64,000 nucleotides of DNA from positions 1 to 64,000 of the forward strand of contig JAGWRO010000037.1 of the NCBI GenBank assembly GCA_028876495.1. Direction: 5' to 3'. This stretch comes from Bacteroidota bacterium (GTDB taxonomy: Bacteria > Bacteroidota > Bacteroidia > Chitinophagales > Chitinophagaceae). The notes under the pieces are model-generated. The model had not been told where the DNA came from and ran no database searches. It saw only the letters and a list, made by a program, of their open reading frames with translations. Positions 44,674-64,000 of this stretch are shown here, piece by piece. The position numbers were made by a program, and so were the translations under genes. Position 1 is the first letter of the stretch. Every line of letters begins with the position of its first letter.

Positions 44674-45513
44674 ATGAAACGACTTGGTTTTTTTTTTATT
44701 TCTTCATTTTTCCTCTTTTCGTGTAACAGTTCAAAGCATCTTATTTTACCTGGAAGAAGCAAGGCTGCTATTACCGGAGATGAATTTTATAAAAGTGTTT
44801 TTGCGGTGAGCCGTGTTGAAAGAGAAGCTTCTGCAAAAAATGAAATCCTGCAGGGAAATATTCCTGCATTTTTAAGAAAAATGGTAAAAATTAAAACATC
44901 CATCACAACAAACGGAGGCAAAGTTATTCACGCCTATTATTTTGTACTTCCAGATTATTTGTCCATTGGTTCCAGTAAAGATTTTTCAAGAATTCCGCTT
45001 ACGCCTATGACTGCGCAACCAATTGCCGACAGCCTGCATTGTTTTTTACCAACAAGGAAGATGGTTAATGATATTTATAATGCTGCAAAAGTAAAATTAG
45101 AACCCGTTCCCATGTATGCTTTCCGCGATAGCGCAGTTACCATGTATCAACATAATCTTATAATTGAAGGTCAAAGAAAATTACGAAAAGGTTTAATTGC
45201 AGGAATAAAAAAGGATGTGGTAATAACTGGCATGCTTACACGCAGTTCAAAACCAAACAGGGTGGCAATTTATGGCTGGCAAAAATCAGATGGCAAACCA
45301 ATTCAACCTTTATACACAGGCCATGTAAACTGGTATGTTGACTACAGCCATGGAATAAGATTGATTTATAGAACTATTTATGTAAACAAAAAACCGATGG
45401 ATTATATAGCTGTTTTGAAAGATCCTGTTTTAAAAAGACTTTTATGTGATGAGGAATATTGCGATTGTTACAGGTATGAAACAACTGATACCGGAAATAA
45501 AAATGTTCATTAA
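44674..45513 (+). CDS. Conserved hypothetical lipoprotein
   Basis: A 279-aa lipoprotein, starting at the ATG at 44674 (MKRLGFFFISSFFLFSCNSS). The longer frame from 44569 runs through the divergent sucC start region and is not credible. It is conserved-looking (ITGDEFYKSVFAVSRVEREAS, VNWYVDYSHGIRLIYRTIYVN), including a cysteine-rich tail (CDEEYCDCYRYE). I cannot assign a family or function. Its last four bases overlap the end of the convergent histidine kinase gene. Confidence 0.75.
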   Translation: MKRLGFFFISSFFLFSCNSSKHLILPGRSKAAITGDEFYKSVFAVSRVEREASAKNEILQGNIPAFLRKMVKIKTSITTNGGKVIHAYYFVLPDYLSIGSSKDFSRIPLTPMTAQPIADSLHCFLPTRKMVNDIYNAAKVKLEPVPMYAFRDSAVTMYQHNLIIEGQRKLRKGLIAGIKKDVVITGMLTRSSKPNRVAIYGWQKSDGKPIQPLYTGHVNWYVDYSHGIRLIYRTIYVNKKPMDYIAVLKDPVLKRLLCDEEYCDCYRYETTDTGNKNVH

Positions 45514-46850: not shown

Positions 46851-46885
46851 GTTGTTGGATTTTTTTGCCCAAAAAGCCGCTATTT

Positions 46886-48241
46886 TTATATATCATATTT
46901 GCTAAGCCTTCTGTACAAAGCAGTTCTTGTAAGTCCCAGTTCCCTGGCGGCTTTGCTGATGTTTCCATTATGCTTCTCAATTACCTTCAAAATCGTATTT
47001 TTTTCAACTGCGTTTAAATTCAAATCTTTGGGCTCTTCTTCTTTTTGAGGAACAGATTCAATAGGAGAAAAAAGAAGATCATCGGCAGAAAGTGTTTCGC
47101 CTTCCGACATAATCATTGCTCTTTCCATAGTATATTGAAGTTCGCGCACATTGCCCGGAAAATGGTATTGTTTCAGTTTTACGATCGCTTTTGCATCAAA
47201 TTCCAACTGCGGTTTCAGATATTTTTTTGCGTACATATTGGCAAAATGTTTCGCAAGCAATATTATATCTTCTCCCCTGTTTCGTAAAGGAGGAACCATT
47301 ATCTCAACGGTGTTAATGCGATAAATCAAATCTTTTCTGAAGCGGTTTTCATTTGCCAACTCGGTGAGAGGCAGGTTGGTAGCACAAATCAGTCGAATAT
47401 CAATGTTCACAGGAATGTTGCTTCCCAGCCGGGTAACTTGCCTGTTTTGCAAAACACTTAATAATTTTGATTGTTGTTGTAAAGTGATATTACCAATTTC
47501 ATCCAAAAATAAAGTGCCGCCATTAGCCGCTTCAAAACGCCCTTCCCTGTCTTCTGCAGCACCAGTAAAGGCTCCTTTTTTATGACCGAATAATTCGCTC
47601 TCAAAAAGTGATTCAGTCAATGCGCCTACATCCACTTTTATAAAAGGTTTTTTAGCCCGAAGCGAATTTTGATGTATCGCTTTTGCAATCAGATCTTTTC
47701 CTGTTCCGTTTTCTCCAAGCACAAGAATGTTTGCATCGGTTGGGGCTATTTTTTCAATTTTAAAAAAGATATCTTTCATCGCTTCCGAATTACCAAGCAG
47801 TTCTTTTCCAATAACAGAAGAATCGCTGGTTATTCGTTCATCAGCCGGCTTTCCTTTGGCTTTCAAAGTTTTTTTGATGCAGTCAATTAATTTTTCATTG
47901 TGCCATGGCTTTACCATAAAATCGGCTGCGCTTTCTTTTAAAGAACGAACCGCCAGGTCAATATCGCCGTAGGCGGTAATCATTATTACATCTGCATTTG
48001 AGCCAAATTCACGAATCTTTTTCAACCAGAAAAGCCCTTCATTTCCGGTATTGATTGAGCTGTTAAAATTCATATCAAGTAAAATGAGATCAACCGGATA
48101 TTTTGCCAAAAGAATCCTGATGTTTTCAGGATTCTTTTCGGTAATTACTTCTTTTACTTCTGTCTTTAACAACAACTTTACTGCTGTTAAAACATCAGTA
48201 TCATCATCTATAATCAATATCGTCGCATTTTTTACATTCAT
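46886..48241 (-). CDS. NtrC-family sigma-54-dependent response regulator
   Basis: A 451-aa activator. The receiver (1-125) has D13/D14 and phosphoacceptor D56 (LILLDMNF), with a short insertion after it (NSSINTGNEG). The AAA+ domain (about 145-375) carries Walker A LGENGTGKD, the sigma-54-contacting loop GAFTGA and Walker B GTLFLDEIGN. A Fis-type helix-turn-helix ends the protein (NISKAARELGLTRTALYRRL). The intact GAFTGA loop means it should activate sigma-54 promoters. Two matching promoter modules with tandem 22-bp sites lie in the facing region (48429-48527) and before the adaptor gene (49080-49177). Confidence 0.95.
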   Translation of the reverse strand: MNVKNATILIIDDDTDVLTAVKLLLKTEVKEVITEKNPENIRILLAKYPVDLILLDMNFNSSINTGNEGLFWLKKIREFGSNADVIMITAYGDIDLAVRSLKESAADFMVKPWHNEKLIDCIKKTLKAKGKPADERITSDSSVIGKELLGNSEAMKDIFFKIEKIAPTDANILVLGENGTGKDLIAKAIHQNSLRAKKPFIKVDVGALTESLFESELFGHKKGAFTGAAEDREGRFEAANGGTLFLDEIGNITLQQQSKLLSVLQNRQVTRLGSNIPVNIDIRLICATNLPLTELANENRFRKDLIYRINTVEIMVPPLRNRGEDIILLAKHFANMYAKKYLKPQLEFDAKAIVKLKQYHFPGNVRELQYTMERAMIMSEGETLSADDLLFSPIESVPQKEEEPKDLNLNAVEKNTILKVIEKHNGNISKAARELGLTRTALYRRLSKYDI

Positions 48242-48428: not shown

Positions 48429-48472
48429 CTGTTTCAAAAGCGGATAACGACTGTATCGTAAGCGTACACTGC
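48429..48472 (+). promoter_or_regulatory. Tandem 22-bp upstream sites, module A
   Basis: Two direct repeats of a CTGTWTC..AA.CG..AAC pattern, at 48429-48450 and 48451-48472. The second starts 70 bp before the -24-like element and lies about 95 bp before the inferred transcription start, the usual range for sigma-54 activator sites. Confidence 0.6.
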
Positions 48473-48496
48473 CTTTCAAACTCAATTTTAAATACT

Positions 48497-48540
48497 ACTG
48501 AAAAACAATTAGTTATGTTTTGGCACGCGTTTGACAATTA
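48497..48540 (+). promoter_or_regulatory. Sigma-54-like promoter, module A
   Basis: ACTGAAAAACAAT at 48497-48509, then TGGCACG at 48521-48527 followed by TTTGAC. The -24 half is perfect (TGGCACG). The -12 half (TTGAC) deviates from TTGC. The first 62-aa gene starts at 48639. Confidence 0.55.
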
Positions 48541-48638
48541 CATAAACAGAAAACAAAAGTGGTTTTCAAAATAATGTAACAAAAAATATTTGAGAACCGT
48601 ATTAAAAAAATAAATACAAACTTTTAAAAATTAAAATC

Positions 48639-48827
48639 ATGAAACTTCAATCAAACAATTTGTTGGAAAATCTAACAAGACAGGAATTAAAATTACTTAC
48701 TACAGAAGTAAAAGAAACCGTTAACAAAAATTTTAAAAAAGAAAGAAAAAGAGTTTTTAGTGCAGCAGATTTCTGGAACATCCAACGCCAAAGAAAAAAT
48801 CTTTACACAAAAAGATTTGCTTTTTAA
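48639..48827 (+). CDS. 62-aa basic protein, paralogue 1
   Basis: A 62-aa protein (MKLQSNNLLENLTRQELKLL...) with a helical N-terminus, a Lys-rich middle (NKNFKKERKRVFSAADFWN) and a basic end (RQRKNLYTKRFAF). It has no signal or membrane segment and no known family that I can name. Its closest relative is the next gene, which matches it at most positions over its full length. The sigma-54-like module A lies ~100 bp upstream, so it is expected to be induced with the transporter operon. Confidence 0.75.
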   Translation: MKLQSNNLLENLTRQELKLLTTEVKETVNKNFKKERKRVFSAADFWNIQRQRKNLYTKRFAF

Positions 48828-48861
48828 AAACTCAATTTATAAACCATTAAAAATTTTAGCC

Positions 48862-49050
48862 ATGAAACTCGAATCAAATAATCTGCTGAAAAATCTTACC
48901 GTAAGTGAATTAAAATTTCTTACAGCAGAAGTAAAAGAAACAGTAGCCAAAGAATTTAAAAAAGAAAGAAAAAGGATTTTTGGCATTGCTGATTTATGGA
49001 ACATTCAACGTCGTAGAAAAAATATTTTGATAAAGAGAATGATATTCTAA
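48862..49050 (+). CDS. 62-aa basic protein, paralogue 2
   Basis: A 62-aa protein (MKLESNNLLKNLTVSELKFL...) aligned end to end with paralogue 1, sharing SNNLL.NLT..ELK.LT.EVKETV and FKKERKR.F. I take the ATG at 48862, not the longer frame from 48760, because the paralogue alignment starts there. The intervening 34 bp holds no promoter-like signal, so both are probably co-transcribed. The conservation after duplication argues for a real function, perhaps a small regulator or chaperone for the adjacent transporter. Confidence 0.75.
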   Translation: MKLESNNLLKNLTVSELKFLTAEVKETVAKEFKKERKRIFGIADLWNIQRRRKNILIKRMIF

Positions 49051-49079
49051 AAGTGCGTGGCTTTTTTGAAGTAAAACCC

Positions 49080-49123
49080 TTGTATCAAAAATGAACGACA
49101 ACTGTATCAAAAACGAACACTAC
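49080..49123 (+). promoter_or_regulatory. Tandem 22-bp upstream sites, module B
   Basis: TTGTATCAAAAATGAACGAC... (49080-49101) and CTGTATCAAAAACGAACAC... (49102-49123) form a clear 22-bp direct repeat. The second site starts 69 bp before the -24-like element, versus 70 bp in module A. Confidence 0.65.
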
Positions 49124-49146
49124 CCGAAAATTTACTTTTCTAACTT

Positions 49147-49190
49147 ACTGAAAAACAATAACATAAATAATGGCATACCGTTTATGTTAT
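49147..49190 (+). promoter_or_regulatory. Sigma-54-like promoter, module B
   Basis: ACTGAAAAACAAT at 49147-49159 and TGGCATA at 49171-49177, at the same 24-bp offset as in module A. A CGTTT follows (49179-49183), also as in module A. The -12 half is weak. The HlyD-type gene starts at 49255. Confidence 0.5.
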
Positions 49191-49254: not shown

Positions 49255-50511
49255 ATGGACAGAGTTATTGAAAAAAAGAAATGGTCAAGAAAAAGGATCC
49301 TTACGATCGCCGGAATAGTTGCTGTGGTCGCTTTGATAGCTGCAAGTTACTATTACACTTCAGGAAAACGCAAACTTAATGTTGATACTGACAGGATTAC
49401 AATAAGTGAAGTTAAGAATGGAACCTTCCAGGAATTTATTCCGGTAAATGGTGTGGTGCTTCCGCTTACTACTATTTACTTAGATGCGGTAGAGGGCGGC
49501 CGGGTTGAAGAAAGATACGTGGATGATGGAACGATGATGAAAAAAGGCCAGCCAATATTAAGATTGTCAAACACAGATTTACAACTTGGACTTGTAACCC
49601 AAAAAACAAATGTGTATAATTTGCTCACCCAGATGCAGATTTCAAAAAATGCTGCTGAACAAAATACGGTGAGTAAACTTAACCAGATGACCGACGTGGA
49701 AAGTGCTTTGAAAGAAGCGGAACGTGTATATAACTTAGATAAATATTTATACGACAAAAAGGCAATCGGCTCCCAGGAATACCAGAAAGCAAAAAACGAT
49801 TATAATTACTATTTGCAAAAACAAAAACTTTCTGAACAAATTTTAAAACAGGATTCTGTGTCTACGGATCAACAGTTGAAACAGGCCAGGCAATTGTTTG
49901 AAGGTTCACAGGATGCGTTGAATGTAATGCAGCAAAAAGTTGGTGACCTTATCGTTCGCGCTCCAATTGATGGCCAGCTTACTTCACTTGATGCTGAAGT
50001 AGGCCAAACAAAAAATAAAGGAGACCAACTTGGTCAAATTGATGTGCTTAGTGGTTTTAAAGTTCGTGTAGATATTGACGAGCACTATATCTCCAGAATA
50101 TTCATCGGGTTGAAAGGCAACTTCGATTTTAATAATAAAACCTACAACCTTGAAATTAAGAAAGTATATACACAGGTTACCAACGGCCGCTTCCAGGTAG
50201 ACATGGAATTTGTGGGTGATGCTCCTGAAGGAATTCGCAGAGGGCAAACTTTACAGATCAGGTTGGCATTAAGTGACGAAACAAAGGCTTTACTCTTGCC
50301 CAAAGGTGGTTTTTATCAGCAAACCGGTGGTAACTGGATCTTTAAAGTAAGCAGCGACGGCAAAACTGCCTACAAAACAGATATTCAACTTGGCCGTCAA
50401 AACCCGGATTACTATGAAGTATTGCAAGGTTTAAAACCCGGCGATAAAGTAATCACCAGCAGCTACGACAATTACGGCGACATGCAGGAGTTGGTATTGA
50501 AGAATCCGTAG
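49255..50511 (+). CDS. HlyD/MFP-family periplasmic adaptor protein
   Basis: A 418-aa adaptor of the membrane-fusion protein family. A single N-terminal anchor lies at about residues 14-32 (KRILTIAGIVAVVALIAAS). The lipoyl/barrel-sandwich hybrid (VRAPIDGQLTSLDAEVGQ and a GGRVEERYVDDGTMMKKGQPIL half) flanks a coiled-coil hairpin (about 120-210, including ALKEAERVYNLDKYLYDKK). A beta-barrel follows (about 260-340). It bridges inner-membrane and outer-membrane parts of a tripartite efflux system. The ATPase gene, with a small gene between, follows on the same strand. No TolC-type outer-membrane gene is present in the window. Confidence 0.93.
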   Translation: MDRVIEKKKWSRKRILTIAGIVAVVALIAASYYYTSGKRKLNVDTDRITISEVKNGTFQEFIPVNGVVLPLTTIYLDAVEGGRVEERYVDDGTMMKKGQPILRLSNTDLQLGLVTQKTNVYNLLTQMQISKNAAEQNTVSKLNQMTDVESALKEAERVYNLDKYLYDKKAIGSQEYQKAKNDYNYYLQKQKLSEQILKQDSVSTDQQLKQARQLFEGSQDALNVMQQKVGDLIVRAPIDGQLTSLDAEVGQTKNKGDQLGQIDVLSGFKVRVDIDEHYISRIFIGLKGNFDFNNKTYNLEIKKVYTQVTNGRFQVDMEFVGDAPEGIRRGQTLQIRLALSDETKALLLPKGGFYQQTGGNWIFKVSSDGKTAYKTDIQLGRQNPDYYEVLQGLKPGDKVITSSYDNYGDMQELVLKNP

Positions 50512-50553: not shown

Positions 50554-50751
50554 ATGAAAATAATATTTCAAAAAAGATTCTTCGTCATTTTCCTGTTGTG
50601 CCTGTATTTTATTTTAGTAAAGTGCAACGTAAAAGCTAAATCAGTTTGTGAAAATGAAAAACAAAGCATCCAGACAGAAAAAAATGTAAATCCCGTGGAA
50701 AAAGCTTCTTCTGATGTATTTCCATCGAGGGATCTGATCATAAAAATTTAA
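50554..50751 (+). CDS. Small membrane or exported protein in the efflux operon
   Basis: A 65-aa protein with a hydrophobic N-terminus (FFVIFLLCLYFILVKC) and a polar, Lys/Glu-rich remainder (EKQSIQTEKNVNPVEKAS). The Cys after the hydrophobic core lacks a good lipobox because Lys precedes it. It is probably a signal-anchored small protein. No family is known to me. It sits between the adaptor and ATPase genes, with short gaps on both sides. Confidence 0.55.
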   Translation: MKIIFQKRFFVIFLLCLYFILVKCNVKAKSVCENEKQSIQTEKNVNPVEKASSDVFPSRDLIIKI

Positions 50752-50784: not shown

Positions 50785-51462
50785 ATGATAAAAATTACAG
50801 ACCTCGAAAAAATCTACCGCACTGAAGAAGTAGAAACCGTTGCTTTGAATAAGCTTTCATTTGCTGTAAGAGATGGTGAATTTGTTGCCGTGATGGGCCC
50901 GTCAGGATGTGGAAAATCAACCTTATTAAACATCCTGGGGTTATTGGATGATCCGGACAGTGGAAGTTTTTTATTCAATGACATTGAAGTGGCTCATTTT
51001 AATGAGAGAAAAAGAGCTGATTTACGCAAACGCAATATTGGCTTTGTTTTCCAGAGTTTTAATCTTATTGATGAACTAACTGTTTTTGAAAACGTGGAGT
51101 TGCCGCTGATCTATCTTGGCGTTAAAGCCGATGAAAGAAAAAAACGGGTTGAGGAAGTACTGGAAAAAGTGCAGATCATGCACAGGAGAAACCATTATCC
51201 GCAACAATTATCAGGCGGACAACAACAACGTGTGGCAGTTGCCCGGGCAGTAGTGAATAAACCAAAACTGATCCTGGCGGATGAGCCTACCGGAAACCTC
51301 GATTCATCTAATGGTAATGAAGTGATGCAATTGCTAATGGAACTGAATGAACAGGGAACCACCATTATTATGGTTACGCACAGTGAGCATGATGCAAGCT
51401 ACAGTCACCGCATTATACGCATGCTTGACGGACAAACAGTTACTGAAAATATTTTGGTGTAA
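50785..51462 (+). CDS. MacB/LolD-type ABC transporter ATPase
   Basis: A 225-aa ATP-binding subunit: Walker A GPSGCGKST, Q-loop FVFQSFNL, signature LSGGQQQR, Walker B LILADEPTGNLDS and H-loop VTHSEH. The family powers mechanotransmission-type exporters rather than classical substrate pumps. It is the only ATPase seen among one adaptor and five permeases, and it lies immediately before the first permease. This implies that it serves several or all of them. Confidence 0.95.
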   Translation: MIKITDLEKIYRTEEVETVALNKLSFAVRDGEFVAVMGPSGCGKSTLLNILGLLDDPDSGSFLFNDIEVAHFNERKRADLRKRNIGFVFQSFNLIDELTVFENVELPLIYLGVKADERKKRVEEVLEKVQIMHRRNHYPQQLSGGQQQRVAVARAVVNKPKLILADEPTGNLDSSNGNEVMQLLMELNEQGTTIIMVTHSEHDASYSHRIIRMLDGQTVTENILV

Positions 51463-51600: not shown

Positions 51601-53958
51601 ATGTTTAAAAATTATATAAAAACGACGTTCAGAAATCTTTGGAAAAACAAAGGATTTACATTCCTTAATATTTTCGGATTGGCGATCGGAATCGCGTGTG
51701 CCGCACTTATTTTTCTCTGGGTTGAAAATGAAGTAAACTACAATGATTATTTCAGTAACAAAGATAATCTCTACAAGATCAAAGACAAACAAACTTACGA
51801 TGGCAATACGTTTACATTTGATGCAACCCCCGGCCTGCTGGCGCAAAGTATCAAGGCTGAGATACCCGGCATAAAAAATACAGCCCGGGCTACCTGGGGC
51901 AACCAATCATTATTTACACTTAATGATAAAAATATTTTTGAGAATGGCCTGTATGTGGATTCTTCATTTTTATCCATGTTTCAACTTAGGTTTATAAGAG
52001 GAAATGCGCCAAGTGCTTTTGACCAATTGCATTCAATTATTATCAGTAAAAAAATGGCTGATAAATTTTTTGGATCTGACGACGTTATTGGTAAGACATT
52101 GAAAGTTGACAATAAACAGGATTACGTGGTGAATGGTGTTTTTGAAGACCTTCCGGAAAATGTTTCTTTTAAATTCGACTGGCTTTCTCCTTTTGATAAT
52201 TTTTTAGAAAACAATCAATGGCTGAAACAATGGGGAAACAATGGTATACCCACCTATGTACAAACAGAGCCAAATGCAAATATTGCATCAATCAATAAAA
52301 AACTTCACAACTATTTAGCGACAAAGGGACCTAATCTCAATGCAAAATTTTCAATTTATCCAATGACCCGGTGGCGTATGTATGATAGTTTTGAAAATGG
52401 CAAGGAAGTTCCGGGCAGAATTAAATACGTTAACCTTTTCACACTAATTGCCTGGATCATTCTATTGATAGCATGTATCAATTTCATGAATCTTTCTACA
52501 GCCCGCTCTGAACAAAGAGCGAGAGAGGTGGGTGTTAGAAAAGTTTTGGGGGCAGGAAAAGGAAAATTAATCGGGCAATTTATTGGTGAAGCCCTGGTGA
52601 TGGCACTACTTTCAGCTTCTTTAGCAGTTGTAATTATTTATGCTTCATTACCGGCTTTCAATTCTCTTGTTGAAAAACAATTGGCTCTTAATATTGCTGA
52701 CCCGGTTCATATTTTCGGATTGCTCGCCATCGCTTTGGTTTGTGGTTTGATAGCAGGAAGCTATCCTGCTTTTTATCTTTCATCCTTCAACCCTGTAACT
52801 GTATTGAAGGGATTGAAAATAAAAGCCAGTGGCAGCGCAGGTTTCATCAGGAAAGGATTGGTGGTAATTCAATTTTCAATTTCAATTATTTTAATTATCA
52901 GCACCGTTCTTATCTATCAACAAATCAATCATGTTAAAACGCGTGATCTTGGATATAACAAAGAAAATTTGATCTACCTGCAATTGCAGGGAAAAATGAA
53001 ACAACATTTTAATGCCATAAAAAACGATTTGCTTGCAACAGGTGTGGTTAAAAATGCGACATTAAGTAACAACCGGGTATTAAGTTTAGGAAGTAATACC
53101 GGTGATTTTAGCTGGCCCGGCAAAGACCCGCAGAAACAAGTATTAGTCACAGTTGAAGGAGTAAGTCCGGAATATGTTTCAACCATGGGAATGCATATAA
53201 AAGCGGGCAGGGATTTTTATACTGATACAAAAATTGACAGTGGCAATGTGATCATTAACGAAACCATGGCAAAGCTTTTAAACAAGAAAGATATTATAGG
53301 CACCGTCATTACAGGACAAGGCCAAAACTTTACCGTCACAGGGGTTATAAATGATTTTATCTATAATGATATGTACAGCCCAAGTGCTCCGTTGATATTG
53401 TTTTCTGACACTTCAAATAATAGCGTTTTAACCATTCGGTTAAAGCCAACTTCTGATTTAACCGCATCTATTTCGAAAATTGGAAATGTTTTAAAATCTA
53501 ACAATCCCGGGTTCCCTTTTGAATACAAATTTGTGGATGAACAGTTTGACCAGTTATTTAAAACTGAAACCTTAATCGGCACGTTAGCAAGCGTTTTTGC
53601 TATACTCGCCATCTTCATTTCATGTTTAGGCTTGTTTGGATTAGCTGCTTACACAGCAGAAAGAAGGACAAAAGAAATTGGCATAAGAAAAGTATTGGGT
53701 GCGAGCGCACGAAGCCTTGCCGGATTATTAAGTATGGACTTTTTAAAGCTTGTGGCTGTTTCCTGCATCATTGCGTTTCCACTGGCATGGTGGATGATGT
53801 ATAACTGGCTTCAAAGTTATGCCTACAGGATAAAAATAAACTGGGCGATTTTTCTTTTTGCAGGCTTAGTTGCATTGCTAATCGCTTTGATCACCGTTAG
53901 CTTCCAGGCAATAAAAGCTGCCATGGCCAACCCTGTTGAAAGTTTGAGGAGTGAGTAA
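51601..53958 (+). CDS. FtsX/MacB-like ABC permease 1
   Basis: A 785-aa MacB-type permease. An N-terminal membrane segment (about 20-42) precedes a periplasmic MacB_PCD domain (about 50-275). Three membrane segments then lie near residues 285-405 (ILLIACINFMNLSTARSEQRAREVGVRKVLGA), with a second periplasmic domain and a second FtsX core at about 660-780 (CLGLFGLAAYTAERRTKEIGIRKVLGAS). The double-FtsX layout is the form common in Bacteroidota. It ends with the conserved VSFQAIKAAMANPVESLRSE. Confidence 0.94.
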   Translation: MFKNYIKTTFRNLWKNKGFTFLNIFGLAIGIACAALIFLWVENEVNYNDYFSNKDNLYKIKDKQTYDGNTFTFDATPGLLAQSIKAEIPGIKNTARATWGNQSLFTLNDKNIFENGLYVDSSFLSMFQLRFIRGNAPSAFDQLHSIIISKKMADKFFGSDDVIGKTLKVDNKQDYVVNGVFEDLPENVSFKFDWLSPFDNFLENNQWLKQWGNNGIPTYVQTEPNANIASINKKLHNYLATKGPNLNAKFSIYPMTRWRMYDSFENGKEVPGRIKYVNLFTLIAWIILLIACINFMNLSTARSEQRAREVGVRKVLGAGKGKLIGQFIGEALVMALLSASLAVVIIYASLPAFNSLVEKQLALNIADPVHIFGLLAIALVCGLIAGSYPAFYLSSFNPVTVLKGLKIKASGSAGFIRKGLVVIQFSISIILIISTVLIYQQINHVKTRDLGYNKENLIYLQLQGKMKQHFNAIKNDLLATGVVKNATLSNNRVLSLGSNTGDFSWPGKDPQKQVLVTVEGVSPEYVSTMGMHIKAGRDFYTDTKIDSGNVIINETMAKLLNKKDIIGTVITGQGQNFTVTGVINDFIYNDMYSPSAPLILFSDTSNNSVLTIRLKPTSDLTASISKIGNVLKSNNPGFPFEYKFVDEQFDQLFKTETLIGTLASVFAILAIFISCLGLFGLAAYTAERRTKEIGIRKVLGASARSLAGLLSMDFLKLVAVSCIIAFPLAWWMMYNWLQSYAYRIKINWAIFLFAGLVALLIALITVSFQAIKAAMANPVESLRSE

Positions 53959-54018: not shown

Positions 54019-54066
54019 GCTAAACAGGTTTTTTTAACGGTAATGTTTATTCGAAAAAAATTCATC

Positions 54067-56463
54067 ATGTTAAAACTAAATTTCGTGCTTAAAAATTATT
54101 TTAAAACCGCCTGTAGGAGTCTATTTAAAAATAAATTTTATTCAGCCATAAACATTAGCGGATTGGCTGTTGGTTTGGCAACCGGCATCCTGTTATTGCT
54201 TTGGGTGCAGAATGAATTGAGCTACGATAAGTTCAATAAAGATTATCAAAATATTTTCAGACTGAGCTCACATTTTAATTCTGATGGTGAAGAACAAGTA
54301 TGGCCCGTGGAGCCGGGTCCTCTGGCAGTTTTCGCGAAAACAATGCCTGAAGTTAAGGCTCTGGTAAGAACACAAAACGAATTTGACCAGGTTCTTTCAA
54401 ATAAAGATAGAACTAAAATATTTGACGGAAATAAAGTGGCAATTGTTGATAGCGGATTTTTTGAGCTTTTTAGTTTTAAATTACTTTACGGGAGCAAAAA
54501 GAGTTTATTTCCAAATGCCAATTCTGTAGTCCTCACTCAATCCACCGCCCAAAAACTTTTTGGCGATGAAGAGGCAATTGGAAAAACGGTGACTTTTGAT
54601 AAAAACAATTTTACAGTGACTGGAGTATTGGAGGATTTTCCTGAAAATTCCTCTTTACAATATGATGCCATTTTTCCAATGGCATTTTATGCAAAGCAAT
54701 TTACAGAGAAAGGCGGTAAAGGCGACTGGAAAACGATTGATGAAGACATGGGCAATTTTAGTTTTGCCACTTATGTAAAATTACAGCCCAATGCAAATCC
54801 TGAAAAAACTGGTCAACAATTTTCTGCAGATTATAAAAAAGCAAGAGACGTAGACAGTAATGTTTCTTTTCAATTGCAAAACCTTGGAGATATTCATTTA
54901 ATAAACGCTGACGGAAATAATTCGGCTTTGAGAATGGTCCGGATTTTTATGCTGGTAGTAATTTTATTGCTGGCTATTGCCAGTATCAATTATGTAAATC
55001 TTTCAACGGCCCGTTCCTTAATCCGTGCAAAAGAAGTAAGTATCCGAAAAATTATCGGCGCAAAAAAGCAGCAATTATTTTTCCAGTTTATTACCGAAAC
55101 TTTCCTTTTGTTTTGTTTTGCGGCAGTGTTCGCCATCGTTTTAATATCCCTGATGATTCCTTTATATAATGGCATTTCGGGCAAAACTTTATCCTTCAGC
55201 CTGGCAGATCCAAATGTACTGAAAGCTGCTTCTGTGGCTATTTTTGGAACCTTGGTCGCTTCAAGTATTTATCCTGCCATCTTATTATCTTCTTTTAAAC
55301 CGATTGAAGCCCTAAAGGGAAAAATTTCATCAGGCATTGGTACTGCCGCCCTGAGAAAGGGGTTGGTCATTTTTCAATTTTCCATATCCGTTATCTTATT
55401 GGTGGGTACCATCATCATGAGTAAACAAATGAGTTTTATTAAGGATAAAGATTTGGGATATGATAAAAGTTATGTTTTTTCCGTACCGCTGACTCAGGAA
55501 GTAGTAGACCACATCGATGCGGTAAAAAATGAGTTGAAAAAAAATCCGTCGATATTAAATGTTGCGGCATCTGATGCTTACAATTTTTCAAATACCGGCA
55601 GTGCAACCGGTGATATTAGTTGGCCGGGAAAACCGGAAAATGAAAAAATGATGATAGCCCAGGTTTCTGCTGATATGGATTTTATCCCGGCAATGAAAAT
55701 AAAATTTATCGAAGGTGGAAATTTTGAAGGAACGCCGGCGGACAGTGCCCATTATATATTAAATGAGACGGCGGTAAAAAGAATGAATTTGAAACCACCT
55801 TATGTCGGCCAACAAATTTCATTTCACGAAAAAAAAGGAACCATTATAGGCGTGGTGAGAGATTTTAATTTTCAATCATTAAAAGAAAAAATTGCACCAT
55901 TAATATTTTACAATTACATGGCCAATAAGAATATTCTATATGTTCGTACAACTGGCCAGGGTGCCAGGCAGGCCATCATTTCGGTAAAAAATCAATATAC
56001 CAAATATGCTGCAGATTCTCCTTTTAGTTACACTTTTTTAGATAAAGCTTTTGAAGCGCAATACAAATCCGATCAGCGTTCAGGGATTTTATTTAGAGTT
56101 TTTGCCGGTATTGCCATATTTATTTCATGCCTTGGTTTATTTGGTCTTGCAACCTATACCGCGCAGGTAAAAATTAAAGAAATAGGTATCAGGAAAGTGT
56201 TAGGCGCCAGTGTTACCGGTATTGTACAATTAATAAGTAAAGACTTTTTAAAATTAGTAATCATCGCAATAATTATAGCCATGCCCGTTGCCTGGTGGGC
56301 AATGAGCAAATGGCTGGAAGGCTTTGCATATCGCATTCATATAAGTTGGTGGGTATTTGCATTAGCGGGTCTTATTGCAATTATGATTGCATTGTTTACA
56401 GTAAGCTTCCAGGCAATAAAAGCTGCCATGGCCAACCCTGTTGAAAGTTTGAGGAGTGAGTAA
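54067..56463 (+). CDS. FtsX/MacB-like ABC permease 2
   Basis: A permease of the same architecture as the first. The ATG at 54067 is used (798 aa). An upstream ATG at 54043 and a GTG at 54085 are alternatives; the GTG gives an N-terminus (VLKNYFKTACRSL) that aligns with the other permeases, which begin M/V-F/Y-KNY. N-terminal segment INISGLAVGLATGILLLLWVQNELSYDKF is nearly the same as in the fifth permease, so those two form a subfamily. The second FtsX core is at the C-terminus, and the ending is the shared MANPVESLRSE. Confidence 0.93.
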   Translation: MLKLNFVLKNYFKTACRSLFKNKFYSAINISGLAVGLATGILLLLWVQNELSYDKFNKDYQNIFRLSSHFNSDGEEQVWPVEPGPLAVFAKTMPEVKALVRTQNEFDQVLSNKDRTKIFDGNKVAIVDSGFFELFSFKLLYGSKKSLFPNANSVVLTQSTAQKLFGDEEAIGKTVTFDKNNFTVTGVLEDFPENSSLQYDAIFPMAFYAKQFTEKGGKGDWKTIDEDMGNFSFATYVKLQPNANPEKTGQQFSADYKKARDVDSNVSFQLQNLGDIHLINADGNNSALRMVRIFMLVVILLLAIASINYVNLSTARSLIRAKEVSIRKIIGAKKQQLFFQFITETFLLFCFAAVFAIVLISLMIPLYNGISGKTLSFSLADPNVLKAASVAIFGTLVASSIYPAILLSSFKPIEALKGKISSGIGTAALRKGLVIFQFSISVILLVGTIIMSKQMSFIKDKDLGYDKSYVFSVPLTQEVVDHIDAVKNELKKNPSILNVAASDAYNFSNTGSATGDISWPGKPENEKMMIAQVSADMDFIPAMKIKFIEGGNFEGTPADSAHYILNETAVKRMNLKPPYVGQQISFHEKKGTIIGVVRDFNFQSLKEKIAPLIFYNYMANKNILYVRTTGQGARQAIISVKNQYTKYAADSPFSYTFLDKAFEAQYKSDQRSGILFRVFAGIAIFISCLGLFGLATYTAQVKIKEIGIRKVLGASVTGIVQLISKDFLKLVIIAIIIAMPVAWWAMSKWLEGFAYRIHISWWVFALAGLIAIMIALFTVSFQAIKAAMANPVESLRSE

Positions 56464-56577: not shown

Positions 56578-59010
56578 ATGTTCAAGAACTATTTAAAAAC
56601 AGCATGGCGAAGCATTCTAAACAGTAAAGTTTATAGTGTATTAAATATAGTGGGGCTTGCTATTGGCCTTTCATGTTTTTTATTGATCTCATTATATGTA
56701 ATGGATGAATTGAGTTATGACCGGTTTTATCCTAACTCAGAAAGAATTTATCGTATCAATTCTGATATACGTTTTGGGGGTGCTGACATGCGCATGCCGG
56801 TTACAAGCGATATGATGGGCGAATTGTTGAAAAAAGATTATCCACAGGTAGAACAATATACCCGCATTTATACTTTCAATGGGGATAAACTGATACGCAA
56901 GGGAAATGACTATATTGATGAATCCAAAGTTGCCCATGTAGATTCTACTTTTTTCGATGTGTTTCAGATTCCTGTTATCGCCGGAGATACGCGGAACGCC
57001 CTGGATGAACCAAACACAGTAGTGCTCACCGCATCTACAGCAAAAAAATATTTCGGCACCACAGATGTTGTAGGAAAAACGATAGAAGTTAAAGATGAAA
57101 AAAATCCATCTTTTAAAATAACTGCTGTAATAAAGGATTTTCCCGAGAATTCTCACTTCCGTTTTGACTTCCTTTTTTCAATGAAAAACGTGGACTACCA
57201 ATGGGGGCAGTTGACCAGTCATAATTTTTATACTTACCTGCTTTTGATGAAAGGAACCGATTACAAAGCATTTGATAAAAATTTTACAACCTACATCGAT
57301 AAATATGTGTTGCCACAGGCGAAACAATACATGAATATCAACAGTATGGCCGAATTTGAAAAGGCAGGTAATAAACTGAAATATTCATTAATTCCGCTTA
57401 CCGATATTCATTTGCATTCCGACAGGCAATTTGAACTGAGCCCGAGCGGCAATATTCAATATGTATATATTTTTTCGGCTGTGGCGTTATTCATCTTGTT
57501 GATCGCGTGTATAAACTTTATGAACCTCACCACCGCCCGCTCTGCAAATCGTGCCAAAGAAGTAGGTATACGAAAAGTATTGGGAACAGAAAAAAAATAT
57601 CTGATTTTTCAATTTTTAACCGAGTCAATCTTAATGACGCTGTTGTCTCTTACCATTGCTGTGATAGCGGTATATTTTGTTTTGCCGTTATTCAACAATG
57701 TGGCCAACAAGCAAATGGCTTTATCAAGTCTTTTTTCACCCCGTATTTTACCGGTGCTTATTACCTTGCCGGTGCTGGTAGGTTTAATTGCCGGTAGTTA
57801 TCCTGCTTTTTATCTTTCATCTTTCAGGCCTATCGAAGTTTTAAAAGGGAAGTTGAAACTGGGCAGCAAAAGTGGGGGCCTGCGTAGCATATTGGTGGTG
57901 TTTCAATTTGCAACTTCTATTATTTTAATCATCGGAACTATCGTTGTGTATAAACAACTTCATTATATCCAAACAAAAGATTTGGGATATAATAAAAATC
58001 ATGTACTGGTAATAGATGGAACCGGAGCTTTGGGCAATAACGTGCAAGCTTTTAAAAACGAAGTAGTAAATATGCCGGGTGTTGTAAGTGGAACCTTAAG
58101 CGCGTTTTTGCCGGTTGCTAATTCGTCACGAAATGATAATACCTGGTCGAAAGATGCAGTCATGAACCCCGCTAACTCGCTTGATATGCAGAATTGGAGA
58201 GTAGATTATGATTATATCAAAACTATGGGAATGCAGGTGGTAAAGGGCAGAAATTTCTCCAGGGACTATGCTACCGATTCCACGGCAGTTATTATTAATG
58301 AAACTACGGCAAAGATACTTGGATATAAAGATCCTATCGGAAAACAGATTTACACTACTGCACAGAAAAGAGATAGTATGATTGCTTACACAATAATCGG
58401 TGTCGTGAAAAATTTCAATTTTGAAACACTGCATCGTACCGTTGGACCACTTGCACTCCGGTTAAGCAACAGCCCATATACCGCTTCATTTAAAATAAAT
58501 ACGGGTAATGTTGGCGCATTGATTTCACAAATAAAAAGTAAATGGATAACAATGGCACAGGGGATTCCATTCAGCTATCGTTTTCTTGATGACTCTTTTA
58601 ATGAAATGTACCGTGCCGAACAACGTGCAGGTACTATCGCATTGATATTTTCTGTGCTGGCCATTTTTATAGCAAGTCTTGGTTTGTTTGGACTGGCAAC
58701 ATTCATAGCACAACAACGTAAAAAAGAAATTGGTATAAGAAAAGTATTAGGCGCAAGCGTGCAGGGAATTGTACAGATGCTTTCAAAAGATTTTTTAAAA
58801 CTTGTTACTGTAGCGTTTGTGATAGCTGTGCCGGTTGCATGGTATGGGATGAGTATTTGGTTACATGATTTCGCATACCGGATAAATATTAGTTGGTGGA
58901 TTTTTATTGCAGCAGGTGTAGCCGCATTTTTAATTGCCTTGATTACGGTGAGTTTCCAGGCAATAAGAGCAGCAATGGCCAACCCGGTTGATAGTCTGAG
59001 AATTGAGTAA
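56578..59010 (+). CDS. FtsX/MacB-like ABC permease 3
   Basis: An 810-aa permease starting MFKNYLKTAWRSIL. Its architecture is as for the first permease, with the first FtsX core around LFILLIACINFMNLTTARSANRAKEVGIRKVLGTEKKYL, and the second core near residues 690-805 ending MANPVDSLRIE. The periplasmic domains differ clearly in sequence from its neighbours, suggesting different ligands. Its stop is followed by the TTAGCTAAT-type spacer and two motif copies, then by a reversed toxin/antitoxin pair. Confidence 0.94.
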   Translation: MFKNYLKTAWRSILNSKVYSVLNIVGLAIGLSCFLLISLYVMDELSYDRFYPNSERIYRINSDIRFGGADMRMPVTSDMMGELLKKDYPQVEQYTRIYTFNGDKLIRKGNDYIDESKVAHVDSTFFDVFQIPVIAGDTRNALDEPNTVVLTASTAKKYFGTTDVVGKTIEVKDEKNPSFKITAVIKDFPENSHFRFDFLFSMKNVDYQWGQLTSHNFYTYLLLMKGTDYKAFDKNFTTYIDKYVLPQAKQYMNINSMAEFEKAGNKLKYSLIPLTDIHLHSDRQFELSPSGNIQYVYIFSAVALFILLIACINFMNLTTARSANRAKEVGIRKVLGTEKKYLIFQFLTESILMTLLSLTIAVIAVYFVLPLFNNVANKQMALSSLFSPRILPVLITLPVLVGLIAGSYPAFYLSSFRPIEVLKGKLKLGSKSGGLRSILVVFQFATSIILIIGTIVVYKQLHYIQTKDLGYNKNHVLVIDGTGALGNNVQAFKNEVVNMPGVVSGTLSAFLPVANSSRNDNTWSKDAVMNPANSLDMQNWRVDYDYIKTMGMQVVKGRNFSRDYATDSTAVIINETTAKILGYKDPIGKQIYTTAQKRDSMIAYTIIGVVKNFNFETLHRTVGPLALRLSNSPYTASFKINTGNVGALISQIKSKWITMAQGIPFSYRFLDDSFNEMYRAEQRAGTIALIFSVLAIFIASLGLFGLATFIAQQRKKEIGIRKVLGASVQGIVQMLSKDFLKLVTVAFVIAVPVAWYGMSIWLHDFAYRINISWWIFIAAGVAAFLIALITVSFQAIRAAMANPVDSLRIE

Positions 59011-59868: not shown

Positions 59869-62328
59869 ATGTTTAAAAATTATTTCAAAACCGCATTCAG
59901 AAGTTTGACCCGTAACAGAAGTTACGTCGTTATCAACATTGCCGGGCTGGCCATTGGTATTGCCGTTTGTATGATGATCTTTATCATTATACAATTTCAA
60001 ACAAGCTTCGATAATTTTCATCCAAAGAAAGATCGCATCTATCGTGTATTAACTCAATCTCATCATGCAGATGTAGTAAATATTACTTACGCAAAAAATG
60101 TTCCTTTTCCAATGCCCACTGCATTGAAAACCGCTTTTCCTCAATTGGAACAAATAGCCCCGGTTTATGCAAGCCACAATGATGAGTTACAGGTTCTTGA
60201 TGATAATGGAACGCCCGTAAAAAAATTTAAAGAACCAAGCGGTGTATTTTATACATCGCCTTCATTCTTTAAAATGTTCAATTTTCCTTTGCTGGCGGGT
60301 TCTTATGAATCATTAAAAGATCCGAACAATGTATTGCTTACGAAAGAGATTGCCCAAAAATATTTTGGTGACTGGAAAATAGCATTAGGTAAAACCATTA
60401 AAATAAAAGGATATTATAGCATGGGGGCAGGATTGTTTCAGTTTCCGGCAACAGCGCTAAAAGTTTCAGGCATTCTCGCAACCATACCCGCAAATACAGA
60501 CTTTCAATTGAAATTGGTTGTTGCTTACGGAACAGATTTTACCGGTGATGCGCAATACGGATTTCAAGAACCCGGGTGGAATCAATCAGCACCTGATTTT
60601 GGTTGTTATGTTTTATTACCGCCAAATATTTCTGTGGACAACTTCAATCAACAATTAAGTGCATATGCAAGAAAGGTAGAATCTGAAGATAATAAGGATA
60701 ACTATATTTTACAACCATTAAGTGCAGTGCATTACGATGCAGAAGCAGGAAATTACAGCAACAAAACAATCAGTCACGAACTGATCAATGTATTGTGGCT
60801 GATTGCAGCATTCATACTGTTGATTGCCTGCGTAAACTTTATCAACCTCTCCACTGCACAGGCTGTTAACCGTGCAAAGGAAGTTGGCGTTAGAAAAGTT
60901 TTGGGAAGTAATAAATCTCAATTGCAGATCCAGTTTATGGTTGAGACTTTTTTGATAGTTACCATTGCGGTAATACTTGCAGCAGGCATTACCATTCTTG
61001 CATTGCCTTATGTAAATCAACTCCTGGAGCTTTCGCTTTCATCCAACATACTAACCAATCCTTCAGTTATTTTGTTTCTTTTGGCTGTAACTATTGTTGT
61101 AACAGCACTCGCCGGTTTTTATCCTTCAATTGTTTTATCGCGGTTCAATCCTGTTAATGCTTTAAAGAGTAAAATCACAGCAAATACAGCAAAGGGAATT
61201 TCATTAAGAAGAGGATTGGTAGTGTTTCAATTCATCATTGCACAGGCACTCATCATTGGAACACTCATCATCGTAAAGCAGATGGATTATTTTATGAACC
61301 GACCACTGGGCTTCGATAAAGATGCCATCGTAAATGTACCCTTCCGCCCGGACAGTACGGGCGTAAAACTGACAGATTATTTAAAGCAGCAGTTATTGTC
61401 AAACGGGGTGCAGGCAGTAAGCTTCAATTCTAACACCCCGGCTGAAGATGATAATAATATGTTTAGCTCCTTCAAATTTGACCACGCATTAAAGGATGAA
61501 GATTTCCAGGCGATTGTCAAATTCGCTGACGATGACTATGTGCCAACTTACAAATTACAACTGGTAGCCGGAAGAAATTTGCAACCTTCGGGTTGGACAA
61601 AAGAATTTTTGGTGAATGAATCATTCGTAAAAAGTTTAGGACTTAAAAAATCGGAAGATATATTGAACAAAGAAGTAAGTATAATGGGTGGGCTGATAAA
61701 ATGTCCTGTTGTGGGTGTATTGAAGGATTTTAATGACAGGTCTTTGCGCCAGAACCTGGCGCCATTGCTTATTGCCACCAATAGTACCATGTATCGCGAG
61801 GCTTCAATAAAACTTTCAACCACAAACATGGCTTCTGCGATGCAGTCAATCAAAAAAATATGGGAGCAAACATTTCCGAACTCTGTTTATCAATACAGGT
61901 TTTTGGATGATAAAATTGCAAGTTTCTATAAACAGGAAAATCAACTTTCGCAGTTGTATAAAATTTTTGCAGTCATCTCGATATTCCTTAGCTGTCTTGG
62001 ATTGTATGGTTTGGCTTCATTCATGGCGGTGCAGCGAATAAAAGAGGTGGGTATTCGTAAAGTATTGGGTGCTACTGCAGGTAACATCGTTTATTTATTC
62101 ACAAAAGAGTTCGTCATTCTTATTTCAATTGCATTTTTAATTGCCACACCTCTTGCATGGTATTTCATGAATAAATGGTTGCAGAATTATGTTTATCGTA
62201 TCGATATCAGTTGGTGGATTTTTGTGATTGGAGGAGCGGCTTCTGTTCTCATCGCCCTTATAACGGTTAGCTTCCAGGCCATAAAAGCAGCGATAGCCAA
62301 TCCTGTGGAGAGTTTGCGAACGGAATAA
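59869..62328 (+). CDS. FtsX/MacB-like ABC permease 4
   Basis: An 819-aa permease starting MFKNYFKTAFRSLTRN. The first FtsX core is around residues 310-420 (AFILLIACVNFINLSTAQAVNRAKEVGVRKVLGS) and the second near 700-815 (LGLYGLASFMAVQRIKEVGIRKVLGATAGN), ending IANPVESLRTE. It is the most diverged of the full-length copies in the periplasmic domains. Its immediate 5' flank is taken by the antitoxin gene, so its promoter must lie in the 60-bp gap or it may be read from another promoter. Confidence 0.94.
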   Translation: MFKNYFKTAFRSLTRNRSYVVINIAGLAIGIAVCMMIFIIIQFQTSFDNFHPKKDRIYRVLTQSHHADVVNITYAKNVPFPMPTALKTAFPQLEQIAPVYASHNDELQVLDDNGTPVKKFKEPSGVFYTSPSFFKMFNFPLLAGSYESLKDPNNVLLTKEIAQKYFGDWKIALGKTIKIKGYYSMGAGLFQFPATALKVSGILATIPANTDFQLKLVVAYGTDFTGDAQYGFQEPGWNQSAPDFGCYVLLPPNISVDNFNQQLSAYARKVESEDNKDNYILQPLSAVHYDAEAGNYSNKTISHELINVLWLIAAFILLIACVNFINLSTAQAVNRAKEVGVRKVLGSNKSQLQIQFMVETFLIVTIAVILAAGITILALPYVNQLLELSLSSNILTNPSVILFLLAVTIVVTALAGFYPSIVLSRFNPVNALKSKITANTAKGISLRRGLVVFQFIIAQALIIGTLIIVKQMDYFMNRPLGFDKDAIVNVPFRPDSTGVKLTDYLKQQLLSNGVQAVSFNSNTPAEDDNNMFSSFKFDHALKDEDFQAIVKFADDDYVPTYKLQLVAGRNLQPSGWTKEFLVNESFVKSLGLKKSEDILNKEVSIMGGLIKCPVVGVLKDFNDRSLRQNLAPLLIATNSTMYREASIKLSTTNMASAMQSIKKIWEQTFPNSVYQYRFLDDKIASFYKQENQLSQLYKIFAVISIFLSCLGLYGLASFMAVQRIKEVGIRKVLGATAGNIVYLFTKEFVILISIAFLIATPLAWYFMNKWLQNYVYRIDISWWIFVIGGAASVLIALITVSFQAIKAAIANPVESLRTE

Positions 62329-62500: not shown

Positions 62501-64000
62501 GTGTATAAAAATTATTTCAAACCCGCGTGGCGAAATTTAAAAGCCAATAAATTCTATAGTATTCTTAATATTAGTGGCCTGGCTGTGGGCCTGGCAACGG
62601 GAATTATGTTATTGCTTTGGGTACAGAATGAATTTAGTTATGATAAGTTTAATAAACAGTATAAGCATATTTACCAGGTAAACTCACACATTACTTTAAA
62701 TGGTAAACCTTTGCCCTGGCGGGGAGCACCCGCACCATTATCTACGATGGCAAAAAATATTCCGGGGGTAATTTCTGTTCTAAGAATAGTAAGTGATAAT
62801 GAAAACCCAACGTTGTCTGATAAGGTATTGTCCAATATTACTTCTACAAAAATCTTTGACAATAACAATATTGTTTATGCAGACAGCAATTTTCTAAACT
62901 TCTTCGATTACAAATTACTGCATGGTACTCGTAATGCTTTTTTGCCCAATGCCCACTCGGTGGCAATTACACAATCAACAGCCAAAAAATTATTTGATAC
63001 AGATGATGCCATTGGGAAAGTTGTCCGGTTTGATAAAAATAATTTTACGGTAACCGCCGTATTGCAAGACTTTCCTAATAATTCTTCCTTACATTACGAT
63101 GCTATCTTTCCGATAGATTATTATGCCCAACAGTTCACGGCTAATGGTGGCAATCGTGCTTACAAGACAATCGATGAAGACGTGATTGATTATAGTTTTA
63201 GAACATTTCTTCTGATAAACCCAAATGGCAACGCTTCAAATATCGAAAAAAAACTCACCTGGTTATTTAATGCAGGAAAAGGTGAAACTCCAACAACTTT
63301 TCGACTACAGAATTTAGGAGACCTTCATCTTACTGGAATTGATGGCAATAATTCTGCTTTGCAAATGGTAAAAATAATGGCCCTTGTTGCGATATTAATA
63401 TTAATTATTGCAAGCATTAATTATGTAAATCTTTCTACGGCGCGTTCTATAATCCGATTAAAAGAAGTAAGTATTAAAAAAATTATCGGCGCAAAAAGAG
63501 CACAATTGTTTCTGCAATTCGTAAGTGAAACCTTATTGACTTTTGTGTTGGCATTTGCCATTGCTACAGCATTAATCATTTTACTGAAGCCTATATATGA
63601 TAAAATCACAGGAGAACAATTATCTTTTTCTTTGTTCAATTTTTCTTCTTTAAAAATGGTGCTTATTGCACTTTTTGGAACCTTACTTATTTCAAGTATT
63701 TATCCTGCATTGTTACTGTCGTCTTTTAAACCTTTGGGAGTAATTCGTGACAAAAGTTTTCTGGGAATTAAAACATCTTCATTTAGAAAAACATTAGTCG
63801 TACTGCAATTTGCCATTTCATTTATTTTATTAGTAGGCACCATTGTAATGGCAAAACAGATGGCATATATAAGAAACAAGGATTTAGGCTACGATAAAAG
63901 CTATGTATTTACAGTTTCTTTTCCTGGAGATGTAGTAAAATATTCGGAAGCAATTGAGACAGAATTATCAAAACAATCATCCGTATCAAATGTTGCATTC
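62501..64000 (+). CDS. FtsX/MacB-like ABC permease 5, GTG start, cut by window end
   Basis: An open frame from GTG at 62501 to the window end (500 codons, no stop). It reads VYKNYFKPAWRNLKANKFYS and continues SGLAVGLATGIMLLLWVQNEFSYDKFNK, closely matching permease 2. The periplasmic domain and first FtsX core are present (LIIASINYVNLSTARSIIRLKEVSIKKIIGAKRAQL). The GTG start is inferred from alignment with the other permeases; an ATG-only search would miss this gene. Confidence 0.9.
   Translation, partial: MYKNYFKPAWRNLKANKFYSILNISGLAVGLATGIMLLLWVQNEFSYDKFNKQYKHIYQVNSHITLNGKPLPWRGAPAPLSTMAKNIPGVISVLRIVSDNENPTLSDKVLSNITSTKIFDNNNIVYADSNFLNFFDYKLLHGTRNAFLPNAHSVAITQSTAKKLFDTDDAIGKVVRFDKNNFTVTAVLQDFPNNSSLHYDAIFPIDYYAQQFTANGGNRAYKTIDEDVIDYSFRTFLLINPNGNASNIEKKLTWLFNAGKGETPTTFRLQNLGDLHLTGIDGNNSALQMVKIMALVAILILIIASINYVNLSTARSIIRLKEVSIKKIIGAKRAQLFLQFVSETLLTFVLAFAIATALIILLKPIYDKITGEQLSFSLFNFSSLKMVLIALFGTLLISSIYPALLLSSFKPLGVIRDKSFLGIKTSSFRKTLVVLQFAISFILLVGTIVMAKQMAYIRNKDLGYDKSYVFTVSFPGDVVKYSEAIETELSKQSSVSNVAF

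Follow-up and report, generated by a model that had tools for sequence, protein, structure and literature searches.

A predicted sigma-54 control module with short -24/-12 spacing upstream of MacA/MacB-type exporter genes in Bacteroidota

Do two similar upstream regions beside an NtrC-type response regulator act as sigma-54 promoters, and which genes would they serve? The question is raised by a locus in a Bacteroidota bacterium of the Chitinophagaceae (GCA_028876495.1; 4.70 Mb in 99 contigs), within a stretch of 64,000 nt (contig JAGWRO010000037.1, positions 1-64,000, forward strand) that is referred to here as the window. An initial annotation had described two modules of common layout, each with a pair of repeats, a shared box and a sigma-54-like promoter, and had proposed that kinase, activator, small proteins and exporter form a closed regulon. 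We argue below that the module is probably the element through which RpoN (sigma-54) controls a regulon of Bacteroidota that comprises MacA/MacB-type ABC exporters, operating in the way proposed toward the end of this account.

The features of the locus are collected in Table 1. The kinase and regulator genes occupy the minus strand (45510-48241) and are divergent from the plus-strand genes for the 62-aa proteins and the exporter. The regulator has the composition of the NtrC family, with a receiver, an AAA+ domain carrying Walker A and GAFTGA, and a Fis-type HTH; the presence of GAFTGA in this divergent regulator had been claimed before and was confirmed. By reading, the kinase appears to have two N-terminal hydrophobic stretches with a very short loop between them and no large periplasmic domain was seen, and in the hydropathy profile the hydrophobic windows begin only at residues 4-13. 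The exporter combines an HlyD-type adaptor, an ABC ATPase and permeases with MacB_PCD and FtsX domains, as in MacAB-type/ADOP exporters, with the NCBIfam ADOP match below cut-off. The darobactin exporter DarBCD supplied the top NCBIfam matches of the adaptor (DarC) and ATPase (DarD) and the second match for the permeases (DarB), at scores below the curated cut-offs (ATPase 300 vs 375, adaptor 177 vs 450, permease 146 vs 700 bits). Within the permease array, a PIN_3-domain gene and an upstream 76-aa partner (59175-59808, minus strand) likely form a toxin-antitoxin pair.

Table 1. Genes and predicted control elements of the locus, in window positions.
Feature	Position	Strand	Basis
Sensor histidine kinase, 446 aa	45510..46850	-	Pfam HATPase_c 5.8e-22
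NtrC-type response regulator: receiver, Sigma54_activat, Fis-type HTH	46886..48241	-	Pfam; GAFTGA at residue 223
Putative activator site 1a, TGTTTCAAAAGCGGATA	48430..48446	+	2 mismatches to TGTATCNNNANCGNACA; fits 218-site motif of relatives
Putative activator site 1b, TGTATCGTAAGCGTACA	48452..48468	+	0 mismatches to TGTATCNNNANCGNACA
Box 1, ACTGAAAAACAAT, core of IHF-like palindrome	48497..48509	.	TG-N5-CA at 48499-48507
Predicted promoter 1, -24 element TGGCAC	48521..48526	+	matches relatives' promoters
Predicted promoter 1, -12 element TTG, short spacing	48531..48533	+	positions 11-13 from T of TGGCA; register from 96 promoters
Small protein 1, 62 aa	48639..48827	+	no Pfam/NCBIfam match; homologues in 50/147 genomes
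Small protein 2, 62 aa, 71% identical to small protein 1	48862..49050	+	no Pfam/NCBIfam match
Putative activator site 2a, TGTATCAAAAATGAACG	49081..49097	+	2 mismatches to TGTATCNNNANCGNACA
Putative activator site 2b, TGTATCAAAAACGAACA	49103..49119	+	0 mismatches to TGTATCNNNANCGNACA
Box 2, ACTGAAAAACAAT	49147..49159	.	TG-N5-CA at 49149-49157; TAA-N4 precedes YTG
Predicted promoter 2, -24 element TGGCAT	49171..49176	+	matches relatives' promoters
Predicted promoter 2, -12 element TTT, short spacing	49181..49183	+	register from 96 promoters
MacA-like periplasmic adaptor	49255..50511	+	HlyD_3 1.3e-11; NCBIfam RND_mfp over cut-off, DarC below
65-aa possible small secreted/membrane peptide	50554..50751	+	ORF; weak sub-cut-off family matches
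ABC ATPase (LolD/MacB/DarD-like)	50785..51462	+	ABC_tran 1.9e-37
MacB/FtsX-type permease 1	51601..53958	+	Pfam MacB_PCD, FtsX
MacB/FtsX-type permease 2	54043..56463	+	ORF; likeness by reading
MacB/FtsX-type permease 3	56578..59010	+	Pfam MacB_PCD, FtsX
MacB/FtsX-type permease 4, after opposite-strand PIN-domain pair; operon membership uncertain	59869..62328	+	ORF
MacB/FtsX-type permease 5, continues past window end	62501..64000	+	ORF

The layout described in the initial annotation was borne out when its coordinates were re-checked. Pairs of 22-bp repeats start at 48429/48451 and 49080/49102, the box ACTGAAAAACAAT follows the second repeat start by 46 and 45 bp (48497 and 49147), TGGCA stands 24 bp past each box (48521 and 49171), and CGTTT lies 77 bp past the second repeat start in both modules (48528 and 49179); one module precedes the 62-aa gene pair and the other the adaptor/ATPase/permease operon. 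The repeat copies are identical at 14/22 and 16/22 positions within the two pairs and, between the second copies of both modules, at 17/22. The box has exactly two copies in the whole window. In simulations with 135-bp regions matched in composition, 6 of 20,000 pairs had a 13-mer in common at the same offset (within 2). In the whole genome, the box followed after 11 bp by TGGCA was found without mismatch only at the two window sites, and with up to three mismatches at 17 sites, compared with 8 in a backward control. The decisive evidence for the module is its conservation in relatives.

Of 144 genomes of the family (two draws, treated as one identical set), 71 have the regulator (E <= 1e-110) and 69 the adaptor (E <= 1e-80), and the two genes are usually divergent neighbours. 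Among the best 80 of 586 matches, the regulator's nearest named relatives were mostly Chitinophagaceae (Niastella, Ferruginibacter, Flavihumibacter and Sediminibacterium), followed by Mucilaginibacter, Pedobacter, Pontibacter, Rufibacter and others. Regulator-MacA intergenic regions were collected from both sources. Seventy family genomes with a full-length regulator match, entered by hand, yielded 60 regions; in the remainder the adaptor was not on the same contig (five genomes) or was distant (one, G034), or the intergenic was too long (four). A partial match (G076), second regulator copies in G060, G065 and G016, and the adaptor fragments of G038 and G095 were excluded. The named loci (best 80 of 586) had an adaptor within 4 kb in 58 cases and none so close in 22. 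The resulting 118 regions reduced to 113 unique ones on removal of identical sequences only, so that near-identical ones were kept and the two sources overlap; 226 simulated sequences of at most 700 bases per region served as controls.

Tandem sites of the form TGTATC-N5-CGNACA were present in 109 of the 113 intergenics and in 1 of the 226 simulated sequences. Their starts are 22 bp apart in 86 regions, 21 bp in 21 and 23 bp in 2, and over the 218 copies the motif reads TGTATC-(A/G)-A-A-A-(G/C)-CG-N-ACA. In 106 of the 109, a -24-like box (TGGCA, TGGTA or CGGCA) follows the second site, 55-85 bp from its start, with 105 of 111 boxes at 68-71 bp. The search of related genomes for the module, which the initial annotation had named as a check, thus found it widely present. 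A second conserved block occurs near the regulator's start in relatives' intergenics (e.g., G051, G137 and G086), reading TATACCATAA-TACAAAG-TGGCAA-TAATTTTTTA, and is perhaps the regulator's own promoter.

The tandem sites also track the regulator itself. An exact pattern, TGTATC-N5-CGNACA-N5-TGT, gave 68 matches in the 144 family genomes compared with 1 in the backward control, and it was present in 48 of the 71 genomes with the regulator and in none of the 73 without it (Fisher p 6e-21), which strengthens the earlier suggestion that the adjacent NtrC-type protein is the likely activator. The genome containing the window has no match to this exact pattern because one copy of each pair is degenerate. 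In a sample of the phylum, the pattern was found in 12 of 296 genomes (25 matches, 1 in the backward control). Of the 25 matches 19 were read, and the module stood before MacB or MacA genes in five genomes of two other families (G215; G241, G264, G354 and G400), so that the same architecture recurs in other Bacteroidota families; the matches in G180, G389, G417, G167 and G394, and one of two read in G241, had no module and were taken as chance.

The genome encodes one RpoN (PF04552, 1.0e-52) with ARRTVAKYRE, which we take to be the RpoN box, and together with GAFTGA in the regulator this upholds the sigma-54 reading. Both window promoters have the -24 element TGGCAY, as do those of nearly all relatives. 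A profile was built from 96 unique promoter sequences, picked for having [TC]GG[CT]A at a suitable distance from the activator sites; GG and A5 are each at 100%, -24 letters that were therefore partly selected, and the -12 letters, which were not, read T11 78%, T12 99%, G13 41% and G14 3%. TTGC began at position 11 (the short register) in 15/96 and at position 12, the canonical distance (GG-N10-GC), in 0/96, and TTG[AC] stood at the short register in 28/96 and at the canonical register in 0/96. Irrespective of the fourth base, TTG occurred at position 11 in 36/96, at 8 in 11 and at 13 in 9; because the -12 element is degenerate, its register rests on T12 and on the minority of promoters with a clear TTG. 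GG-N9-G was found in 35 of 118 MacA-side regions, and all five modules of the window's genome have, by reading, TT at positions 11-12. The canonical consensus, as printed in the available text of PMC9765219, is TGGCACG-N4-TTGC(T/A) with TTGC at position 12; since it is at 11 here, the -12 element lies one base nearer to the -24. The initial annotation had judged the -24 halves right, which holds for both promoters (TGGCAC and TGGCAT), and the -12 halves weak, an appearance explained by this displacement, and its idea of a lineage variant gains support from the 96 promoters. Individual modules of relatives deviate, with -24 elements AGGCA (L358) and CGGCA (L381), no TT at positions 11-12 (L369), or a gap from palindrome to -24 that is longer by about one helical turn (L365 and L366).

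It is quite unlikely that these are promoters of canonical spacing in which the -12 half has merely decayed, so that the short spacing would be an effect of base composition. The region is indeed degenerate and T-rich, with TT at positions 12-13 in 39/96 and TTG at 13 in the nine promoters already mentioned, but TTGC and TTG[AC] cluster at the short register and are both absent from the canonical one, and position 14, where a canonical promoter has G, is hardly ever G. Very improbable, in our judgment, is that the promoters are read by the primary sigma factor, with the NtrC-type regulator as an ordinary activator. The -7 element of the Bacteroidota primary sigma factor is TAnnTTTG, and some promoters read TGGCATATxTTTG, holding a run of this kind, with TA at positions 6-7 in 22/96. 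However, TGGCA[CT] is nearly invariant and yet foreign to that -7 consensus, the regulator retains GAFTGA, the genome retains rpoN, and the tandem sites lie at enhancer distance.

The short spacing could also come from RpoN itself in those lineages that have the regulator, in which case all their sigma-54 promoters would be short; this is possible, though we do not favor it. The canonical pattern TTTGGCAY-N5-TTGCW gave 117 matches in the 144 family genomes compared with 54 in the backward control, and none in the genome under study. An excess over this control was seen in the 73 genomes without the regulator (84 vs 24) and was absent from the 71 that have it (33 vs 30), as such a property would predict, but the search pattern is strict, the counts are small and both groups belong to one family. 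Promoters of another activator, beside kdp genes, also lean weakly toward canonical spacing, with GG-N10-GC in 9/70 and GG-N9-GC in 5/70, a weak count given 2-5 for other spacings and about 1 in shuffles; kdpA was recognized by pattern in 10 of the first 30 of these loci, and a motif search there returned a small coding gene rather than a promoter. Canonical sites were clustered in three genomes, all without the regulator (G097, 12; G140, 11; G089, 8). In 16 stretches read around such sites, five sites lay 12-44 bp before an ORF, of which four or five were lipoprotein-like by reading, and 6 of the 16 overlapped a predicted ORF of at least 80 aa; the five G140 copies share a common upstream sequence and are thus not independent. 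Given the excess in genomes without the regulator and the few sites before lipoprotein-like genes, the family's RpoN is probably able to read canonical spacing, if not necessarily both spacings within one genome.

A separate regulon is possible at L444, L446, L447 and L451 (in G097 and G089), where canonical sigma-54-like sites stand 12-44 bp ahead of small genes that look lipoprotein-like. In G140, a repeated stretch, often near contig ends, contains a canonical TTTGGCAYGATTTTTGCW site (L436-L440). Seven loci (L257, L258, L265, L271, L273, L275 and L279) have an NtrC-type regulator adjoining genes that read as kdp-like potassium-transport genes, with a CTTTC/GAAAG hairpin directly after the regulator gene.

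Between the activator sites and the promoter lies a palindrome. A dyad YTG-N5-CA with a 13- or 14-bp gap to TGGCAY was present in 84 of the 113 intergenics and in 1 of the 226 simulated sequences, flanked by TAA four bases upstream (T 80%, A 95%, A 92%) and by a TTA-like run downstream. The box ACTGAAAAACAAT was accordingly rejected as a unique local element and appears to be one form of the palindrome TAA-N4-YTG-N5-CA, which resembles an IHF-type bending site on both strands. When compared with WATCAANNNNTTR, which we take to be the IHF consensus, the palindrome fitted with at most one mismatch on either strand in 40 of 83 cases and in 43 of 415 shuffles, and 38 of the 40 lie at four fixed places over both strands. 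The palindromes of the window's genome are imperfect, with 1-2 mismatches to the consensus by eye, and copy 1 is without a clean TAA arm. A genome-wide scan for palindrome plus TGGCA gave 108 matches compared with 21 for a poor backward control and is too noisy for naming targets. We take the palindrome as the likely site of a homodimeric IHF/HU-family protein, and the cognate protein could be another one. A role as operator of a further transcription factor, a second input rather than a bending site, appears somewhat doubtful: the dyad is clean and its near-fixed 13/14-bp distance to the -24 is tighter than a plain bend needs, but the two arms each match the IHF consensus and do so in register, and sigma-54 systems commonly place IHF between enhancer and promoter.

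The regulon predicted from these elements extends beyond the locus. In the window's genome TGTATCNNNANCGNACA occurs perfectly at five sites, all within modules; at up to two mismatches it occurs at 265 sites compared with 201 in the control, hardly above it, and only perfect sites were therefore used. The three modules outside the window each have a second weaker site, the palindrome core and a -24 element (TGGCTT on C99). One precedes genes for an ABC ATPase and for an outer-membrane efflux protein (C58:47658; Pfam ABC_tran and OEP), and two precede genes that read as MacB-type permeases (C26:25471 and C99:160562). In relatives, further modules stand before MacB-type permeases (L358, L369, L381, L384, L387 and L398), before an exported protein of about 150 aa (L365 and L366) and before an exported repeat-rich protein with no Pfam match (L377). 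Of 30 exact-tandem-site loci of the family 12 were read, and among these L373 and L376 had no module and were taken as chance. The earlier idea of a closed local regulon, in which kinase and regulator would serve only the small proteins and the exporter beside them, is scarcely tenable as a result. Both window modules do face genes of their own locus, but the modules on C26, C58 and C99, before exporter genes, contradict closure at the sequence level, and some relatives have several exact sites per genome. Short peptides with a hydrophobic N-terminus, between promoter and adaptor, begin the exporter operon in a few genomes (G007, G107, L209/L375; cf. window 50554-50751), and some of them end like LNA(I/V)TV(R/K)LM, as a possible exported signal or regulator.

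The membership of the small proteins, also part of the earlier proposal, was not upheld beyond occasional cases. Their homologues occur in 50 of 147 family genomes and adjoin the adaptor operon in only 2 of 40 regions (G034 and G134), and none of the 26 homologue upstream regions that were read had the module (the same-order loci L073 and L088 are not among the 26). TGGCA was present in 4 of these 26 and a loose partial site in 4. As core regulon members the small proteins were thus dropped. They may be envelope-stress accessories that the regulon captured in this genus. In 8 of the 26 loci (L062, L064, L065, L071, L076, L077, L079 and L082) the homologue lies directly before two genes, one PadR-like and one large and PspC-like; for one of these pairs Pfam confirmed the identities, PadR and PspC with Toast-rack.

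We propose that the membrane kinase would sense envelope or peptide stress and phosphorylate the NtrC-type regulator, which would bind the tandem sites, located between about 79 and 117 bp ahead of the start. At the palindrome, centered about 45 bp upstream, the DNA would be bent by an IHF/HU-family protein, and the AAA+ domain of the regulator would open RNA polymerase-sigma-54 held at TGGCAY-N4-TT(G/T). The likely effect of a distance of 9 rather than 10 bp from GG to the -12 G is a weak closed complex that stays silent until activation. One regulator would act in trans on five or more promoters of this kind in the genome, and exporters would be made at several loci. On balance, and with modest confidence, we favor a sigma-54 regulon of several Bacteroidota families that unites one activator with MacB-type exporters, a -24/-12 pair one base closer and a palindromic bending site, either as a promoter class of its own or through an RpoN with shifted spacing.

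Several known systems resemble parts of this arrangement. BceRS-BceAB are peptide sensing and detoxification modules of Firmicutes, and they too have a kinase with almost no extracellular loop adjoining an FtsX-type ABC exporter. However, the regulator here is of the NtrC, sigma-54 type rather than the OmpR type, and the exporter has a MacA adaptor and several permeases of about 800 aa. PspF-pspA, an envelope stress system, likewise places a divergent sigma-54 activator beside an envelope-stress operon, whereas here a receiver-domain regulator is accompanied by a kinase and the target is an exporter; among the ORFs inspected, no pspA was seen. Sigma-54 promoters of the nifH/glnA/pspA type share tandem upstream sites for the activator, putative in the present case, an IHF-like site between these and the promoter, a TGGCAY -24, a GAFTGA activator and one RpoN, but their IHF site is one-sided whereas the bending-type site here is palindromic. 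They also differ in the distance from GG to the -12 G, which is 10 by the consensus in the available text of PMC9765219 and 9 here.

A 2025 survey (PMC12316311) predicted that COG0577 antimicrobial-peptide permeases of Bacteroidia are under sigma-54 control, and that prediction, as far as its available text goes, shares target class, sigma factor and phylum with the present regulon. The same text names enriched gene groups and quotes TGGCACN5-7TTGCT, and mentions neither an activator or its sites nor a bending site or a short spacer. Our analysis would add to it a candidate activator and its motif, the module, the bending-type palindrome, the fixed geometry, a predicted trans-acting set and the one-base-shorter spacer. 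Searches of the open-access literature, with a limited range of phrasings, returned no printed report of the short spacer, nor of the activator, motif, palindrome, geometry or trans-acting set.

Since sigma-54 promoter prediction assumes a fixed spacing, it would overlook a regulon whose spacer is shorter or rate its promoters as weak, as the initial annotation did with the -12 halves here. If the short spacing is functional, it tests the rigidity of -24/-12 recognition by RpoN. For an exporter regulon of Bacteroidota, a phylum whose sigma-54 network is little covered in the literature found, the analysis yields a candidate activator with its putative binding motif and a list of predicted targets. 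From these sequences, a soil-type bacterium appears to switch on several sets of peptide-exporter genes through one conserved module.
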